The notes under the pieces were generated by a model. It did no database searches. It was not told where the DNA came from and worked only from the letters and a program-made list of their open reading frames with translations. A stretch of 64,000 nucleotides of DNA from Dehalococcoidia bacterium (GTDB lineage: Bacteria > Chloroflexota > Dehalococcoidia > SZUA-161). Position 1 is the first letter of the stretch, and each line of letters begins with the position of its first letter. Of the stretch, positions 3 through 7,349 are shown piece by piece. The stretch spans positions 38,451 through 102,450 of the forward strand of contig JAUXAX010000003.1 in NCBI GenBank assembly GCA_030619685.1, given 5' to 3'. The position numbers were made by a program, and so were the translations under genes.

Positions 3-158
3 TTCACTGTTATATATCAAGACACGCCTTTGACTGGTTCATATGTAGTGAAGGAAACACCCTCTATGACCTATACCTTGCTATTTGTGCAGGCCACTGG
101 TGCAGATTGGCAAGAGGGCATTGATGTGGTAGCTTCCTTTACGCTAATAGGTGATTAG
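3..158 (+). CDS. 3' end of an unknown cargo gene (partial)
   Basis: An open frame enters from the left edge and stops at TAG 156-158, giving the last 51 residues of a protein (ending ...ASFTLIGD). The piece is rich in Thr, Val and aromatic residues and looks like beta-structured sequence. I recognise no family. It lies upstream of the recombinase module and is therefore probably cargo of the integrated element. The other two forward frames stop earlier or give implausible protein. It could also be a chance open frame. Confidence 0.4.
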   Translation, partial: FTVIYQDTPLTGSYVVKETPSMTYTLLFVQATGADWQEGIDVVASFTLIGD

Positions 159-359: not shown

Positions 360-590
360 ATGGATAACCTGATAGAAAAGTACATGAGCAGCGCAGAGGC
401 AGCTAAAATCCTTGGTATTTATACAGCCTCAGTAAACCGATTGGCACGGCAGGGAATCATACCCGCCGTAAAGATTGGGGGTGGGTGGATTGTTTCCCGT
501 CAGTTTGTGGAGGATATGGCAAGGAGCTACGAAGGGCGCAGGGGTAGACCTCGCACAAAGCGCAAGTACACAAGGAGGGTACAGCAATGA
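360..590 (+). CDS. Small excisionase/AlpA-type HTH protein with AT-hook-like tail
   Basis: A 76-residue protein. Residues about 9-50 fit the excisionase-family winged helix-turn-helix: a start like SSAEAAKILGI, a recognition-helix region TASVNRLARQG, then a KIGGGWIVSR hairpin. The C-terminus is strongly basic and holds RRGRPR, an AT-hook-like core. Its stop overlaps the recombinase start by 4 bp (ATGA type), so the two are co-translated. By context it is either the recombination directionality factor or the repressor acting on the dyad at 325-344. No strong Shine-Dalgarno precedes the ATG. Confidence 0.75.
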   Translation: MDNLIEKYMSSAEAAKILGIYTASVNRLARQGIIPAVKIGGGWIVSRQFVEDMARSYEGRRGRPRTKRKYTRRVQQ

Positions 591-2242
591 AAGCAGCACT
601 ATACGCCAGGGTGAGTACGAAGGAGCAGAAGGAAGAAGGCTCAAGCCTTGAGACTCAGGTCGAGGATTGCCTGAAGTTTGCTTCCAAGAATGGTTATTCA
701 GTAGATGGATTGGTGTTCAAGGAGGATTGGACGGGTGCTACCCTTGACCGACCAGAGCTTGATGCGGTTCGCAACCTCGTAAGGAATCGTGACATAGATG
801 CCTTGATAGCCTATGCCACAGACCGCCTTGCACGTAACCCGATACACCTGGCCATACTTGCCGAGGAATGCGACAAGCACAGGGTTAAGCTGGAGTTTGT
901 AACCGAACCCCTGGACGATAGCCCAGAGGGGCAGCTAATCCTGTATGTCAAGGGGTACGCTGCACAGATAGAGCGAGCGAAGATCGCTGACCGCACCTTG
1001 AGGGGCAAGAGAATGAGGGCTAGGCAAGGTAGAATACCCGCTGGTGGCGGTATTGGCTTGTACGGCTATGACTATGTGCCGGGCAAAGAGGATAGCCAAG
1101 GAGTACGCAGGGTAAATGAAGAGCAAGCGAAAGTCGTCAGGATGATATTCCGTTGGCTTGTCGAAGATCACATGACTCTCTACGGTATATGTGTCAAACT
1201 TATGGAGATGGGTATAGCCTCTCCCAAGGACACTGGAAGGTGGGGGCTCAGTACGGTAGGCCGCCTACTACGCAACCCAGCATACATGGGAAAGACATAC
1301 GCGTTTAAGTATCTCTCGGTAGAACCAAGGAAGCCCGCCAATACGACTAGACGCTATTCGAAGAGTGCTCGCCAGGTGCGACCAACCGAGGAATGGATAG
1401 AGATTCCAGGGGCTACGCCGCCTATCATAAGTGAAGAAGTGTTTGCATTGGCTCAGTCGCAACTTAGAAGCAACTTGGAAAGGTCAACGCGCAATCAGAA
1501 GCACCAGTATCTATTGAGCGGACATATCAGGTGTGGACTGTGCGGAAGGCGCTACATTGGACATACCAATGGGTTTGGCTACCAACTCTATCGTTGCTAT
1601 GGAAGGCGCAGGCCAGAATCGATCACTCCCTGCCCTGCCAAGGGGGTCAAAGGAGTGGAGTCGGAGTTCCTGGTATGGGAAGAGGTCAAGAAGGTTCTGA
1701 TTCATCCCGATCTCATATTGTCCGAGCTTCGAAGACGCCAGGATGAGGCTAGCAACAGCCAGGCTGTAGAAGACGACATAAGGGTTGTGGATAAGCGCCT
1801 TGAACGTATAGACAGCTCGATACAAAGACTTGTGACACTATACCGACTCAGCGAGATTGACGACCAGTTTATCCTTAATGAGAACAAGAAGCTCAAGCAG
1901 GAGAAGGAGAGGCTACTAGAAGAGAAGGCAGCACTACGGAACAGGCTTGAAGTGCAGACAGTCAACGAGTTCCAGCTTGAGGCTCTCAGAGAGTACTGCG
2001 ACAGAGCAGCAAAGAACATAGAGCAGTTCACCTATGAGGATAAGCGATTGGCACTGGATGCTCTTGGAATCGAGGTCATAGTAAAGCCTGAGGGTATAGC
2101 GATTCGGGGTGCGATACCAGCAAGTATCCCATCTATTACTTCTCCTCCATCACTATCGTTGGACTTCCCGATACTGCGGTACAGGAGTCTAGAGAAAGGG
2201 TTCGCTCTGCCATCAGGAACTCAGGGTGCCAGTTTCCCATGA
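587..2242 (+). CDS. Large serine recombinase (site-specific integrase)
   Basis: 551 residues. The N-terminal resolvase domain begins ALYARVSTKEQ with the nucleophile Ser10 and continues to about residue 150. A recombinase domain (about 170-270) follows, then a zinc-ribbon with two CxxC-like elements (CGLCG near residue 312 and later Cys in YRCYG and TPCP), a coiled-coil stretch of Glu/Lys/Arg-rich sequence (about 400-470) and a C-terminal tail. The start has a strong Shine-Dalgarno (AAGGAGGG). The last roughly 30 codons overlap comM in another frame, so the C-terminus is partly encoded by the host target gene. Large serine recombinases integrate elements by attP x attB recombination and need a directionality factor for excision. 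Confidence 0.95.
   Translation: MKAALYARVSTKEQKEEGSSLETQVEDCLKFASKNGYSVDGLVFKEDWTGATLDRPELDAVRNLVRNRDIDALIAYATDRLARNPIHLAILAEECDKHRVKLEFVTEPLDDSPEGQLILYVKGYAAQIERAKIADRTLRGKRMRARQGRIPAGGGIGLYGYDYVPGKEDSQGVRRVNEEQAKVVRMIFRWLVEDHMTLYGICVKLMEMGIASPKDTGRWGLSTVGRLLRNPAYMGKTYAFKYLSVEPRKPANTTRRYSKSARQVRPTEEWIEIPGATPPIISEEVFALAQSQLRSNLERSTRNQKHQYLLSGHIRCGLCGRRYIGHTNGFGYQLYRCYGRRRPESITPCPAKGVKGVESEFLVWEEVKKVLIHPDLILSELRRRQDEASNSQAVEDDIRVVDKRLERIDSSIQRLVTLYRLSEIDDQFILNENKKLKQEKERLLEEKAALRNRLEVQTVNEFQLEALREYCDRAAKNIEQFTYEDKRLALDALGIEVIVKPEGIAIRGAIPASIPSITSPPSLSLDFPILRYRSLEKGFALPSGTQGASFP
2145..2180. other. Probable attachment junction (right end) inside comM
   Basis: In the frame of the downstream comM gene the sequence becomes recognisable comM protein at about 2152, reading TIVGLPDTAVQ. 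That motif belongs to the N-terminal domain of ComM/YifB. Upstream of 2152 the same frame no longer resembles comM and hits a stop at 2089-2091. The change from element to host sequence therefore lies near 2145-2165. The exact crossover bases cannot be fixed without the left junction or an empty site. Confidence 0.75.
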
Positions 2243-3582
2243 AGCGGATAACGGTAAACCTCGCCCCCGCTGACCTCAAGAAAGCTGGCCCTGCCTATGA
2301 TCTTCCGATCGCAGTTGGCATACTACTCAGTTCGGAGCAGATCTCAGTTGACACCTCCCAGATGCTTTTCCTCGGCGAACTCTCCCTAGATGGCGGCCTG
2401 CGGCATACTCAAGGCATTATCTCTATGGTCGATCTTGCCAAGGAGAGGGAAGTCCCCACGGTTTTCGTCCCTGCTGCCGATGCCAGAGAGGCCTCGCTGG
2501 TGCGAGGCGTTAACATTATTCCTGTATCCTCCTTGTCCCAACTGGTTGGTCACCTCCGTGGCGAAGCGGTTATCTCCAGCTATGTTGAAGAGGAGATTGC
2601 GGCTGAGGTGGGGGAAACGCCATGGCCGACTACCGATCTCGGTCTCATCAAGGGACAGGAGCATGTGAAGCGGGCATTGGAGGTAGCCGCTGCTGGGGGG
2701 CATAACCTGGTCATGAGCGGGCCGCCGGGAGCCGGCAAGACACTGCTTGCCCGGGCGCTGCCTTCTATCTTGCCCCAAATGGGCATCGCAGAGGCTTTGG
2801 AGGTAACCAAGATCTATAGCGTGAGCGGGCTCCTTCCCCAGGATACGCCGCTCATCAGGCAGCGCCCGTTTCGGGCACCACACTACACTATATCACATGC
2901 CGGGCTTGTCGGCGGTGGTCGCTGGCCAAGGCCCGGTGAGATAAGCCTCAGCCACCGGGGTGTTCTCTTTCTCGACGAGCTTCCCGAGTTCGGACATGCC
3001 GACCTCGAGGTCCTGCGTCAACCTTTGGAGGACAGAGTGGTGACAATCAGTAGGGCTCAGGGCAGTGTCACCTTTCCCGCAAACTTCATGCTGGTGGGGG
3101 CGATGAACCCCTGCCCCTGTGGATATTACGGCGATCCGATCAAGGAATGCACCTGTTCCCCGATGCTGGTCTCTCGATACCAGAAGCGCATCAGCGGGCC
3201 GCTGCTTGACCGCATCGATATCTTCGCTGAGGTTCCCCGTGTCGATTACGATAAACTCGCTGATGACCGGATGGGTGAGAGCTCGGAGATGGTGAGGCAG
3301 CGGGTTGAGCAAGCACGCTCGATCCAGCAGCAACGCCTTAAGGGTACCAAGCTTGTTTGCAATGCCGACATGACCCCCCTGGAGGTGCGTGAGTTTTGCC
3401 AGGTGGAGCCTTCTGCGCAAAGCCTGCTACAGGCGGCGATGAACCAACTACATCTTTCGGCACGTGCCTTCCACCGCATCCTGAAGCTGGCTCGCACCAT
3501 AGCTGACCTTGCCGGCGCTGAGACTATCGACGCCAGCTATCTCGCCGAGGCGCTCCAGTATCGGCCGCGGGATCAGCTATAG
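2239..3582 (+). CDS. comM: ComM/YifB Mg-chelatase-like ATPase, 5'-truncated by element insertion
   Basis: 447 residues from the first available ATG. Homology to ComM/YifB continues in frame upstream to about 2152, where it is cut by the mobile element; intact members are about 500 residues. Visible are the rest of the ChlI domain, Walker A GPPGAGKT, Walker B VLFLDELPEF, a CPCGYYGD...CTCS cysteine motif and the C-terminal Mg_chelatase_C helices. ComM is a hexameric helicase promoting branch migration in natural transformation. Without about 50-60 N-terminal residues this copy is probably inactive or altered. The start ATG overlaps the recombinase stop codon (ATGA), so it may still be translated by coupling. 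Confidence 0.9.
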   Translation: MKRITVNLAPADLKKAGPAYDLPIAVGILLSSEQISVDTSQMLFLGELSLDGGLRHTQGIISMVDLAKEREVPTVFVPAADAREASLVRGVNIIPVSSLSQLVGHLRGEAVISSYVEEEIAAEVGETPWPTTDLGLIKGQEHVKRALEVAAAGGHNLVMSGPPGAGKTLLARALPSILPQMGIAEALEVTKIYSVSGLLPQDTPLIRQRPFRAPHYTISHAGLVGGGRWPRPGEISLSHRGVLFLDELPEFGHADLEVLRQPLEDRVVTISRAQGSVTFPANFMLVGAMNPCPCGYYGDPIKECTCSPMLVSRYQKRISGPLLDRIDIFAEVPRVDYDKLADDRMGESSEMVRQRVEQARSIQQQRLKGTKLVCNADMTPLEVREFCQVEPSAQSLLQAAMNQLHLSARAFHRILKLARTIADLAGAETIDASYLAEALQYRPRDQL

Positions 3583-3634
3583 ACCTGCCTGGCAGCGGGA
3601 TTAACCCACTTCCTTTATCCGCTAAACCAAGCTC

Positions 3635-3663
3635 TTGCTCCACCTATGGCTTGCTGATATACT
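3635..3663 (+). promoter_or_regulatory. Putative promoter of the mechanosensitive channel gene
   Basis: TTGCTC (3635-3640), a 17-nt spacer and TATACT (3658-3663) lie about 45 bp before the mscS start. A GGGAGG ribosome binding site follows at about 3690. Confidence 0.5.
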
Positions 3664-3705
3664 GTGCCCACGCCCTCGGAACCTGGCGCAGGGAGGTAAC
3701 AGACC

Positions 3706-4998
3706 ATGGAGAATCCCTTTGGGAACATCGACTGGGGCAGGGTTGGCGACTGGTTTTCAGAACAGGGTGTGTGGCTGCTGGTCACCCTGGTTGTGGCTGC
3801 CCTTTTCTACTTGGCCCTGAGGAAAATAATGCCTCGGGTAGTTAAGTCAATACTGGCGAGGATAGAAGTGGCCCCGACCGGGGAGGAGCAACAGCGATTG
3901 TCTCGTACCGTGAGCCGGGTCGTCATCTGGCTAGGCACAGTAATTATCGTTGCCGCCCTGGTGTTCGCGCTTCTTCCCCGGTTTGGCGTGGACCTATCAC
4001 CCGCAGGGAAAGCTATCGGGGGCTGGCTGGGGAGCAATGGGGTTCGCATCGCCATCATCGTCGCCCTGGCGGTCGCCGCTCATCAGATTGTGAGGAGGTT
4101 GATCCACAGGGTGGTGGAGAAGGGCGTTATCAGGGGGAAACGCCGCCCCCGGGAAGAGCTCAAGAAGAGGGCGGAGACCCTGAGCAGCTTCCTTAGCCAG
4201 GCTGTTGCAGCGGTGATCTGGGTGATGGCTGCCTTCATGATCCTCTCCGAACTAGGGGTGAATATCGGTCCCCTGCTCGCTGGCGCTGGCATCGCTGGCA
4301 TCGCTATCGGCTTCGGCGCCCAGAGCCTGGTCAGGGATGTGTTGAGCGGGCTGTTTATCATCATCGAGAACCAGTATGGCAAAGGTGATGTGGTAAGGAT
4401 CGCTGACATCGCCGGGTTGGTGGAGGAGGTAAATATAAGGAGAACGATACTGAGGGACCTTGACGGCATCGTGCATGTAGTTCCCAACGGTGAGATCAGG
4501 GTTGCCAGCAACTTCACCAGGGAATACTCCAGGGTCAACCTCAACATCTCTGTAGGCTATGGCGAAGACCTTGATCATGCAATGCAGGTCATAAACAGGG
4601 TGGGGCGGGAGATGGCTGAAGAGGAGTACTGGGGCGAGGCCATCTTAAAGACACCTGAAGCGCTGCGGGTGGATAACCTTGGGGATTCGGGGATTGACAT
4701 AAAGATACTGGGAGAAACCAAACCGATCAGGCAATGGGAGGTGATGGGGGAGCTGCGGAAGAGGCTCAAAAAGGCTTTCGATGAGGAAGGGATCGAGATC
4801 CCCTGGCCCCATACCAAGGTCTATTTCGGCGATGCTCTCAGGCAAGTGGTGGAGGAGAAGGAGACCACCGCCAAGGGCCCTAAGAGAGAGGTGACGGAGA
4901 AAGGCATCCCCGGCAGGGTCTCTCGGAAAAAGACAAGAGTGAAACGCCTTCCTCCTCCGAAAGAAGAGGAAGAAGGGGAAGGAGACACAGGGGGCTAG
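3706..4998 (+). CDS. MscS-family small-conductance mechanosensitive channel
   Basis: 430 residues in the inner membrane. Hydrophobic segments lie at about 20-45, 70-95, 105-125 and 160-185. The pore helix and beta domain signature follows: GIAGIAIGFGAQSLVRD, then a DVVRIADIAGLVEEVNIRRT segment and VVPNGEI. The C-terminal cytoplasmic alpha/beta domain continues to about residue 370. The last 50 residues are a low-complexity Lys/Arg/Glu tail. Such channels open under membrane tension and release solutes on hypo-osmotic shock. The neighbouring trehalose genes make an osmotic-stress theme plausible. The start is set by a good GGGAGG site. Confidence 0.93.
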   Translation: MENPFGNIDWGRVGDWFSEQGVWLLVTLVVAALFYLALRKIMPRVVKSILARIEVAPTGEEQQRLSRTVSRVVIWLGTVIIVAALVFALLPRFGVDLSPAGKAIGGWLGSNGVRIAIIVALAVAAHQIVRRLIHRVVEKGVIRGKRRPREELKKRAETLSSFLSQAVAAVIWVMAAFMILSELGVNIGPLLAGAGIAGIAIGFGAQSLVRDVLSGLFIIIENQYGKGDVVRIADIAGLVEEVNIRRTILRDLDGIVHVVPNGEIRVASNFTREYSRVNLNISVGYGEDLDHAMQVINRVGREMAEEEYWGEAILKTPEALRVDNLGDSGIDIKILGETKPIRQWEVMGELRKRLKKAFDEEGIEIPWPHTKVYFGDALRQVVEEKETTAKGPKREVTEKGIPGRVSRKKTRVKRLPPPKEEEEGEGDTGG

Positions 4999-5041
4999 CA
5001 GCCCTTTGGGATATAATTTCAGGCTTTCCTTGAAGGAAGAT

Positions 5042-5851
5042 ATGCCTTATCTCTTCGACCATTTCGATTCTGTACGCGAGCTACTATCGCTTGCGCCTCT
5101 TGGCCTTTTCACCGATATCGATGGCACTATCAGCGAGACTGCGCTGTCCCCTGCGGAGGCCCGTGTCTCCCCGGTCTGCCGGGAGAGCCTGGCCGTCTTG
5201 GCTAAACATTTGGCAGTGGTGGTTGCGGTATCAGGAAGGCCGGCCGCTGAGGCGAGGAAAATGGTGGGCATCGATGAGATAGTCTACATCGGCAATCACG
5301 GGTATGAGAGGTGGGCTGGTGGGGGTGTTGAGCTTGTGCCCGGGGTCGAGGACTATTACGCCAGGGTTAAGGCGGTGCTTGATGAGCTCCGTAAACTTGT
5401 CTCTATCGAAGGGGTCATTCTTGAGAATAAGGGTCCCACCGCCTCGATCCACTACCGTCGCTGCCGCGATCGCGAAGCTGCGCTGAAAGCCATTATCTCG
5501 GCGGTGGATGGATTGGCCAGAGCTGGCAATCTGAGGGTCAGCCTGGGGAAAATGGCGGTCGAGCTCAGGCCGCCGCTGGAAGTGAGCAAAGGGACTGCCG
5601 TATTTTCCTTAATAGAAGAGCACTACCTGAGCGGGGCAATTTATCTGGGTGATGACCTGACTGATGTCGATGTCTTCGTTGCTTTTCACCAAAAAGGACT
5701 GCCCTTCAAAGGGCTCGCCATAGGGGTCATAGGGGAGGAGACGGTACCCCAGATTGCGAGGCAAGCGGATTTCATTGTCAATGGGGTGGGTGATGTCGAG
5801 CGGTTTCTTAGACAGGTAGTAGTAGAGGTAGTTGGCAAGCCAGCTTCCTGA
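5042..5851 (+). CDS. otsB: Trehalose-6-phosphate phosphatase
   Basis: 269 residues from ATG 5042; an in-frame TTG at 5006 would add 12 residues. HAD-superfamily signatures are present: motif I FTDIDGTIS, motif II VAVSGRP, Lys in the LGKMAVELRP region and motif IV GDDLTDVDVF. The enzyme dephosphorylates trehalose-6-phosphate to trehalose. Its 3' end overlaps the 3' end of the convergent otsA by 44 bp, so the two pathway genes face each other rather than forming an operon. Confidence 0.92.
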   Translation: MPYLFDHFDSVRELLSLAPLGLFTDIDGTISETALSPAEARVSPVCRESLAVLAKHLAVVVAVSGRPAAEARKMVGIDEIVYIGNHGYERWAGGGVELVPGVEDYYARVKAVLDELRKLVSIEGVILENKGPTASIHYRRCRDREAALKAIISAVDGLARAGNLRVSLGKMAVELRPPLEVSKGTAVFSLIEEHYLSGAIYLGDDLTDVDVFVAFHQKGLPFKGLAIGVIGEETVPQIARQADFIVNGVGDVERFLRQVVVEVVGKPAS

Positions 5852-7349
5852 GATCCTGGAATTGGTGGTAGAGCCACCTCGTGATATCTTCCTCTTCGAT
5901 CGTTTTCCTCAATGCCTCGGCTCGTCGTTTTCTCTCTGCTGGATTCATAGTCAGCGCTTCATGCAGCGCCCGGGTTGTTCCTTCCACGTCTGCCGGTGAT
6001 ACTGATATGACGTGCTCTCCCAGTTGCTCATGGGCACCAGCGGACTCTGACAGGATCAGGACGCTATTGTTGGCGCTGGCGATAGGCCCCTCCTTGGCTA
6101 CCAGGTTCATGCCATCGATCACCGGGTTCACCAGGAGGACGTCGCAGAGGCGCATCCCTGCTATTGCCTGAGCATAGTTATTCTCGAAGAATACCTTTAT
6201 TGGCTGCCATCCCTCATTTCCATATTTGGTATTGATTGCCTCCACGTAATCGAATACATCTTGCGTGTATCTTTGATACTGCTTTATTCCAGATCGGGAG
6301 GGAACCAGGAAGCACATTAGCTTGACTCTGTTCAACAAATGGGGATAGCGCTCCAGTAGTATATCGAAGGCTTTCAAGCCGCGGACGATATTCTTGCTAG
6401 GCTCTGCCCGGTCGACCCTCACGATAGTCTGTTCCCCCAGGTGGGCGCGCAGCTTTTCTTCATAATCGCGAACCCTGGGCGAACGCGCATGTCGCTGCAG
6501 TGCAGCGACATCTATGGATACGGGATAGGAAGCGACCTTGGTTTGATGACCTCCCAGGGCTACAGTGTGGCTCTCGTAATCGACCTCAGCATCATCCAGG
6601 AACACCTCGCAGCTGTGCAAGAAGTGGTGCACATCGCGACTGGTCTGCAAACCCACGATGTCGACGGCACAGAGGCTTTCCAGGATCGCCCTGCGCATCA
6701 GGTCGGGGAAAAGGTGCCAGTAGCTGGGGGAAGGCCAGGGGATATGGATGAAATGCTGCAAGATGGCTTGCGGCATCCGGCGGCGAATATAGCCACCGAC
6801 CACGTAGAGTTGGTAGTCATGGATCATTATGAAGGGAGGCACCCTGTCGTTGGCTGCTTCGGCGATAGCAGCTTCGGCGAAGGCACGGTTAACTGCAACA
6901 TACCCGTTCTCCCATGCATCGTAGACCTTGGCATCGATGTTGGGAGTATAGGGTGAATTCCACATATAATGCTGGAGGAACCAAAGTAGGGGATTGCAGA
7001 ATAGGTTGTAAAACTTGTGGTAGACGTTCCTGGGGTTGGTAACGAATCGAAGATACAGCTTTTGCCCTGGGAGCTGGACTTGGAAGCGTCCATCCTGCTC
7101 GGCAGCAACACGGCGGTCTCCCTCCCCCATAGCGCTGGCGATCCAGGTAAGCTCCACATATTTGCTGATGGCGCTGAGGGCGGTGACAACCCCGCCGCTG
7201 CCCCGATTTAGCTGCAGTATGCCGTCTTTGCCGACGCGATAATCAACAGGACCTCGATTACTGATCAGGATAAGTCGCCTTTCGGCGAGCAACTCCTGGC
7301 ATAGCTCGATGAGATAGTCACCGGGTTGATTATGCCTGGAGGATAGCAT
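5808..7349 (-). CDS. otsA: Trehalose-6-phosphate synthase (GT20)
   Basis: 513 residues, glycosyltransferase family 20. Typical motifs are ISNRGPVDY near the N-terminus, HDYQLYVVGGYIR, FIHIPWPSP, DIVGLQTSRDVHHFL, VDRAEPSKNI (usually DRxDxxKG) and DGMNLVAKE. It joins UDP-glucose (or another NDP-glucose) to glucose-6-phosphate. A strong minus-strand promoter (7356-7384) would place the transcription start on or next to the ATG at 7349, which suggests leaderless translation. It converges with otsB with a 44-bp tail overlap. Confidence 0.92.
   Translation of the reverse strand: MLSSRHNQPGDYLIELCQELLAERRLILISNRGPVDYRVGKDGILQLNRGSGGVVTALSAISKYVELTWIASAMGEGDRRVAAEQDGRFQVQLPGQKLYLRFVTNPRNVYHKFYNLFCNPLLWFLQHYMWNSPYTPNIDAKVYDAWENGYVAVNRAFAEAAIAEAANDRVPPFIMIHDYQLYVVGGYIRRRMPQAILQHFIHIPWPSPSYWHLFPDLMRRAILESLCAVDIVGLQTSRDVHHFLHSCEVFLDDAEVDYESHTVALGGHQTKVASYPVSIDVAALQRHARSPRVRDYEEKLRAHLGEQTIVRVDRAEPSKNIVRGLKAFDILLERYPHLLNRVKLMCFLVPSRSGIKQYQRYTQDVFDYVEAINTKYGNEGWQPIKVFFENNYAQAIAGMRLCDVLLVNPVIDGMNLVAKEGPIASANNSVLILSESAGAHEQLGEHVISVSPADVEGTTRALHEALTMNPAERKRRAEALRKTIEEEDITRWLYHQFQDLRKLACQLPLLLPV

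Follow-up and report, generated by a model that had tools for sequence, protein, structure and literature searches.

The window, that is, the whole stretch of 64,000 nucleotides analysed here from a Dehalococcoidia bacterium (contig JAUXAX010000003.1), carries near its left end the gene of a large serine recombinase (LSR, integrase) that runs into a comM gene lacking its first 31 codons. The leftmost feature assigned to the element is the 3' end of an ORF on the forward strand (3..155, read by eye), whose 51 residues had no match in Pfam or PHROGs. It is followed on the same strand by a gene (360..590) encoding an excisionase-like HTH_17 DNA-binding protein of 76 residues (Pfam PF12728, E 3.1e-10; PHROG 66, annotated as 'excisionase and transcriptional regulator', E 1.3e-7), which overlaps the recombinase start by 4 bases and may serve as a directionality factor. 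The recombinase gene itself (587..2242, forward strand) encodes 551 aa with the Pfam domains Resolvase (E 2.1e-31), Recombinase (E 2.1e-21) and Zn_ribbon_recom (E 1.2e-11), and residues 1-506 match the integrase family PHROG 95 (E 2.2e-107). Resolvase, recombinase and zinc ribbon domains joined in one protein of ~450-600 aa define the LSR class. The catalytic serine of LSRs sits near the N-terminus in an R-V-S motif; the window enzyme has S10 within YARVST, a residue invariant in 14 of the 14 rows of alignment A1.

To the right lies the comM remnant (2152..3582, forward strand), which extends from codon 32 to the end of the gene according to the alignment with a related locus, L097, and contains the Pfam domains ChlI, Mg_chelatase and Mg_chelatase_C. 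The only ORF left for ComM (2239..3582, forward strand, 447 aa) starts at the internal Met of FPMKR; its ATG at 2239 is the only ATG, GTG, TTG or CTG codon in the comM frame from the stop at 2089 onwards to that position. The TGA of the recombinase (2240-2242) overlaps this internal ATG (2239-2241), an ATGA overlap that exists because of comM's own M-K codons and through which coupled translation of the remnant is possible. Downstream, the host flank carries an MscS-type channel gene (3706..4998, forward strand, Pfam MS_channel), and beside it two convergent ORFs (5006-7349), which we take to resemble a trehalose-phosphate phosphatase and synthase pair. The GC content is 49.8% in positions 1-2150, rises to 58.6% within the comM remnant and is 53.1% over the remaining sequence.

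The original prediction had placed a break in comM at about 2152, with conserved coding sequence persisting upstream of the first ATG to that point and all likeness lost beyond it, and this description is borne out. To the left of 2239 the comM frame stays open across TIVGLPDTAVQESRERV as far as 2152, and the nearest in-frame stop left of 2239 is the one at 2089. A Chloroflexota locus served as the starting point of a search for an uninterrupted comM in 393 genomes belonging to a single class; ComM was found at E <= 1e-250 in 11 of them, the closest being that of L097 (G601:C172; 93% identical protein). Among the 120 ComM matches listed, the relatives with a stated organism are Dehalococcoidia or Chloroflexota. 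The window and the uninterrupted comM of L097 share 83 of 87 bases in 2152-2238 and 1343 of 1431 over the entire remnant, compared with 38 of 110 in 2042-2151, where a partial match persists at 2139-2151 (8/13). The drop in identity at ~2152 is a sharp break, far from chance. L097 matches the window without interruption over 2144-5084 (92.3% DNA identity), a range that includes the channel gene, and thus shows the target site (attB) intact in a relative that lacks the element. Counted from the L097 ATG, the join comes after 31 codons of comM, within the TIVGLPD motif, so that the boundary of the element falls inside comM, as in comM-targeting mobile elements. An intact comM upstream in the window would have spoken against the prediction; a tblastn search with the first 70 ComM residues gave a single significant match in the window, at 2146-2268 (E 2.5e-24), the next match having an E value of 0.64.

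The recombinase had also been described as abutting the break. It does adjoin comM, but its reading frame continues ~90 bases into it: the codon for residue 522 has its last base at 2152, and the codons of residues 523-551, like the stop, are host comM read in a different frame. The last 29 codons of the recombinase are thus borrowed from the host, as the integrase gene points towards the junction and extends across it, and the free element should therefore encode a different tail.

The same break recurs in related integrases. P0003, an integrase from another source that is 88% identical to the window enzyme, ends in LSLDCPILRYRRPEKGFALPSGTQGASFL, 29 residues that equal the frame-shifted comM of L097 letter for letter. 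The tails of other relatives, known mostly from protein records rather than DNA, were subjected to a codon-compatibility test, which asks whether codons exist that encode both the integrase tail and ComM in a shifted frame, sense or antisense. With 120 integrase tails set against ComM columns 1-62 in 18 rows (480 tests), seven proteins gave runs of 16-33 codons, the next best of the 480 tests being 10; the maxima of the controls (600 internal segments per mode) were 11, 11, 13 and 7. The runs facing in the sense direction were those of P0003 (33 codons), P0008 (31), P0013 (24) and P0002 (16, the run being cut by an Ala-to-Ser change), and those facing antisense belonged to P0010 (26, ComM 7-32), P0012 (24, ComM 1-24) and P0007 (20, ComM 5-24). 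Seven of the 12 LSRs in the clade of the window enzyme therefore have tails that correspond to comM read out of frame, with the break around codon 32. For the five others (P0004, P0005, P0006, P0009 and P0011), neither direction yielded a significant match to comM, several of their tails being too short to test. The short tail of P0011, SSRQAGR, resembles the opposite-facing tails without reaching significance.

Most of these assignments were repeated by tblastn with 60 integrase tails against 14 comM loci, a tiny database in which E-values were computed without composition correction. Among the sense tails, P0003 matched L097 (8e-17), P0002 matched L097 (1.4e-12) and P0008 matched L099 (2e-7), the P0013 match to L102 being weak (0.001); among the antisense tails, P0012 and P0007 matched L102 (2.5e-9 and 1.5e-7) and P0010 matched L100 (4e-5). 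Other tails gave numerous scattered hits of lower significance (0.004 to 1), which were not counted. When the codon test was extended to the whole of comM with 34 tails, the 136 control tests yielded values of up to 20, several unrelated tails scored 20-22 at variable ComM ~171-195, and neither P0002 (16) nor P0007 (20) stood out. The test is thus informative only where ComM is conserved, as the controls reach 20 and ComM ~171-195 accepts unrelated tails. The case for P0002 accordingly rests on the N-terminal codon test and the DNA comparison of window and L097, and that for P0007 on the N-terminal codon test and tblastn. When viral contigs were scanned with the integrase sequence alone, no relative was found; with alignment A1 the scan returned 103 relatives, of which 80 were kept, none in the close clade since they are only 23-36% identical. 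The scan of genome contigs gave two distant loci.

These tails also bear on whether the junction is an assembly chimera between an element contig and a comM contig, a suspicion that arises since the window is probably metagenomic and only one end of the element is visible. It is extremely improbable: the independent record P0003 has the same join, its tail being L097 comM in the same frame, and P0008 and P0013 repeat it.

The right, attR-type junction can be confined to 2142..2161 (forward strand), with element DNA to the left and comM to the right. Matches to L097 per 20 bases rise from 9 (2132-2151) to 16 (2142-2161) and 19 (2152-2171), and the crossover probably took place within the middle interval. 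A comM fragment on another contig, G601:C202, retains comM as far as the base corresponding to 2161. Read by hand, the codons of the sense-facing cases require the crossover dinucleotide at or right of 2152, and those of P0007 seem to require it near or left of 2152. A crossover further right, at ~2190, in an element with a comM-like arm would make 2166, 2188 and 2190 element bases; the window differs from L097 at precisely these three positions and has a Ser in place of an Ala found in every one of the 18 ComM rows of alignment A2. P0003, with the same join, nevertheless has ordinary comM residues there, as its 29-residue identity to L097 demonstrates, and three changes in 39 bases (2152-2190) do not greatly exceed the divergence of the window from L097 overall (88/1431). 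Such a displaced crossover is therefore judged very unlikely.

Taken together, the first ~2.15 kb of the window are best read, with a probability of about 0.94, as the right end of an integrated element, a prophage or integrative island, whose own LSR split comM around codon 32. The prediction that a serine recombinase had integrated the element into comM is in this way upheld by the empty site in L097, by the tail of P0003 and by the same break in other members of the clade. The lower GC content of the element compared with the comM remnant, the two comM halves around the element of G510 and the recombinase end beside comM codons 1-34 on G601:C202 are in line with this reading. The recombinase of the window itself would have joined the attachment site of the element to a site in the TIVGLPD codons of comM, separating 31 codons, expected where the element begins on the left, beyond the window, from codon 32 to the end, which remain here. 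Excision might be aided by the HTH_17 protein.

The neighbourhood of recombinase and comM could, in principle, also stem from an old rearrangement that left a remnant element without a left end. Decay of this kind is seen on G601:C202, where approximately the last 37 residues of an LSR stand beside comM codons 1-34. In the window, however, the recombinase and HTH_17 genes are intact, and the comM remnant contains no stop and shares 94% of its bases with L097, which together suggest a young event and leave an old rearrangement very improbable. In the comparison of substitutions, 23 synonymous and 14 nonsynonymous changes fall on the window branch of the remnant, 25 and 19 on the L097 branch, and 3 are unassignable, so amino-acid change in the remnant is no faster than on the L097 branch and shows no sign of relaxed selection. 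The insertion is therefore young, or the comM remnant still matters. ComM function may have been lost and, if so, the loss would be recent.

Less expected is the direction of the insertions. The seven integrases with comM tails fall in one clade of 12 (tree of 48 rows, support 96/96), in which sense and antisense are mixed: four LSRs are directed towards the 3' part of comM, as in the window, and three towards the 5' part. Two enzymes of opposite orientation, P0010 (towards the 5' part) and P0013 (towards the 3' part), share 81% identity across 94% of P0010. The four sense-facing integrases do not form one clade (3 changes, with 32 of 500 shuffles as low), and facing direction is thus not a simple inherited trait. 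The DNA of an opposite-facing form, from another LSR lineage, is seen on G601:C202 (L125, positions 3184-3285), where the decayed C-terminal end of an LSR, encoded on the opposite strand, stands immediately after comM codons 1-34. This end is matched by 93 of 120 tails at E <= 0.01 (best 1.35e-13, 79% over 34 residues), and the remainder of the LSR was not found on that contig. L125 probably represents what remains of another insertion at the comM site seen in the window. The G601 MAG holds three full-length comM genes on contigs other than C202.

According to the title of Ghosh et al. (2003), the central dinucleotide alone determines the orientation in which Bxb1 acts. Under this rule, sister enzymes that face both ways need either a self-complementary core or flipped element sites. 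That members of this recombinase clade use a single comM site for integration in either direction, through a self-complementary core or through an element site flipped several times, is a tentative idea and, on present evidence, a rather doubtful one. If true, these would be natural two-way serine integrases, with a C-terminus supplied by whichever half of comM the enzyme faces, and natural test objects for how a serine-integrase core sets direction. A narrow literature search for serine integrases working in both orientations with a palindromic core yielded one engineering paper only, as far as the entries returned reveal. The two-way use of one site by sister enzymes seems the less expected part of these results, the insertion itself being mostly ordinary.

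Related recombinases also occur at other targets. LSRs fitting the model from A1 at E <= 1e-140 were present in 4 of the 393 genomes of the class (with at most three candidates scored per genome among those listed), and none of these four genomes uses the codon-32 site of comM. In G510 (L126, G510:C19), comM is split before MNPCPCG (codon ~346), the two halves lying 13.9 kb apart on one contig; the element ends have CTGGT in common, and the cargo includes a primase-polymerase, a DUF669 protein, an AAA/OLD-like protein and a DNA methylase. This element is like that of the window in its related LSR and split comM, and differs from it in using another comM site and in facing the opposite way. In G548 (L112/L130 and L129), radC is split inside its JAB domain by a related LSR, profile positions 2-70 and 60-118 being found on two contigs. 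In G576 (L106), a comEC-like gene ends at a related LSR, the frame of which overlaps the gene on the other strand by ~160 bases; the comEC reading is based on the Pfam Competence domain and on a motif near the break, and none of the Lactamase_B matches in G576 could be identified as the other half of the gene. In G508, the LSR adjoins the start of mutS, which is unbroken there. L107 was considered as an LSR inside mutS and rejected, since Pfam MutS domain I begins at residue 17 and the start of the gene is thus present. The loci L108, L109 and L110 are not counted among these targets. The ComM search of viral contigs returned two loci, L113 and L114, both with a broken comM and the latter with an adjoining LSR.

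For a group of uncultured Chloroflexota, these results define a comM attachment site together with its empty counterpart, and they add Dehalococcoidia cases to the pattern of mobile elements in genes for DNA uptake and repair. The comM islands of the AbaR type are Tn7-like, with transposition genes at the element ends; the visible part of the window element is its right end only (2.15 kb), where a serine recombinase sits and no transposition gene is among the genes identified. Two of the reports compared below, PMC10083194 and PMC4774983, are presumably Durrant et al. 2022 and Croucher et al. 2016, respectively. Islands of Dehalococcoides are described at ssrA (PMC3146451), and among the papers found on serine recombinases of Dehalococcoid(ia) no title dealt with comM in Dehalococcoidia.

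Insertion in comM is already a known kind, as comM-family insertions are described in PMC10083194, PMC9203015 and PMC4774983. Genes of the magnesium chelatase/comM family are the targets of 12.4% of predicted site-specific LSRs, and DNA competence genes are enriched among LSR targets (PMC10083194). Compared at the level of the gene family, the window LSR resembles the comM-targeting LSRs reported there in its Resolvase, Recombinase and zinc-ribbon domains and in its insertion inside a comM-family gene. The serine recombinase of the phage WO variant sr1WO of Wolbachia integrates into a magnesium chelatase gene, leaving pieces of the gene on both sides (PMC9203015). The window enzyme is like it in being a serine recombinase with a magnesium chelatase gene as target, and unlike it in sequence and host, which are distant. 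WO recombinases are among its best phage matches, at 30-32% identity over 69-76% of the query; a phage of the sr1WO type would carry a recombinase from the sr1WO sequence group along with WO structural genes, and 2.15 kb of the window element are visible. No Wolbachia record was among the 32 phage records matching ComM. In phage WO of wVitA (L115, L116), the annotated recombinase ORF is 1653 bases long according to the prophage record and 1740 according to the phage record, and the two sequences diverge just before the recombinase end (L115:4093), so the tail of the WO integrase also depends on sequence past the junction. Finally, elements inserted in comM with a common integrase are described from Aggregatibacter, Acinetobacter and others, where the split of comM has been proposed to benefit the element by blocking its removal by transformation (PMC4774983); the window element is like these in being mobile DNA that splits comM.
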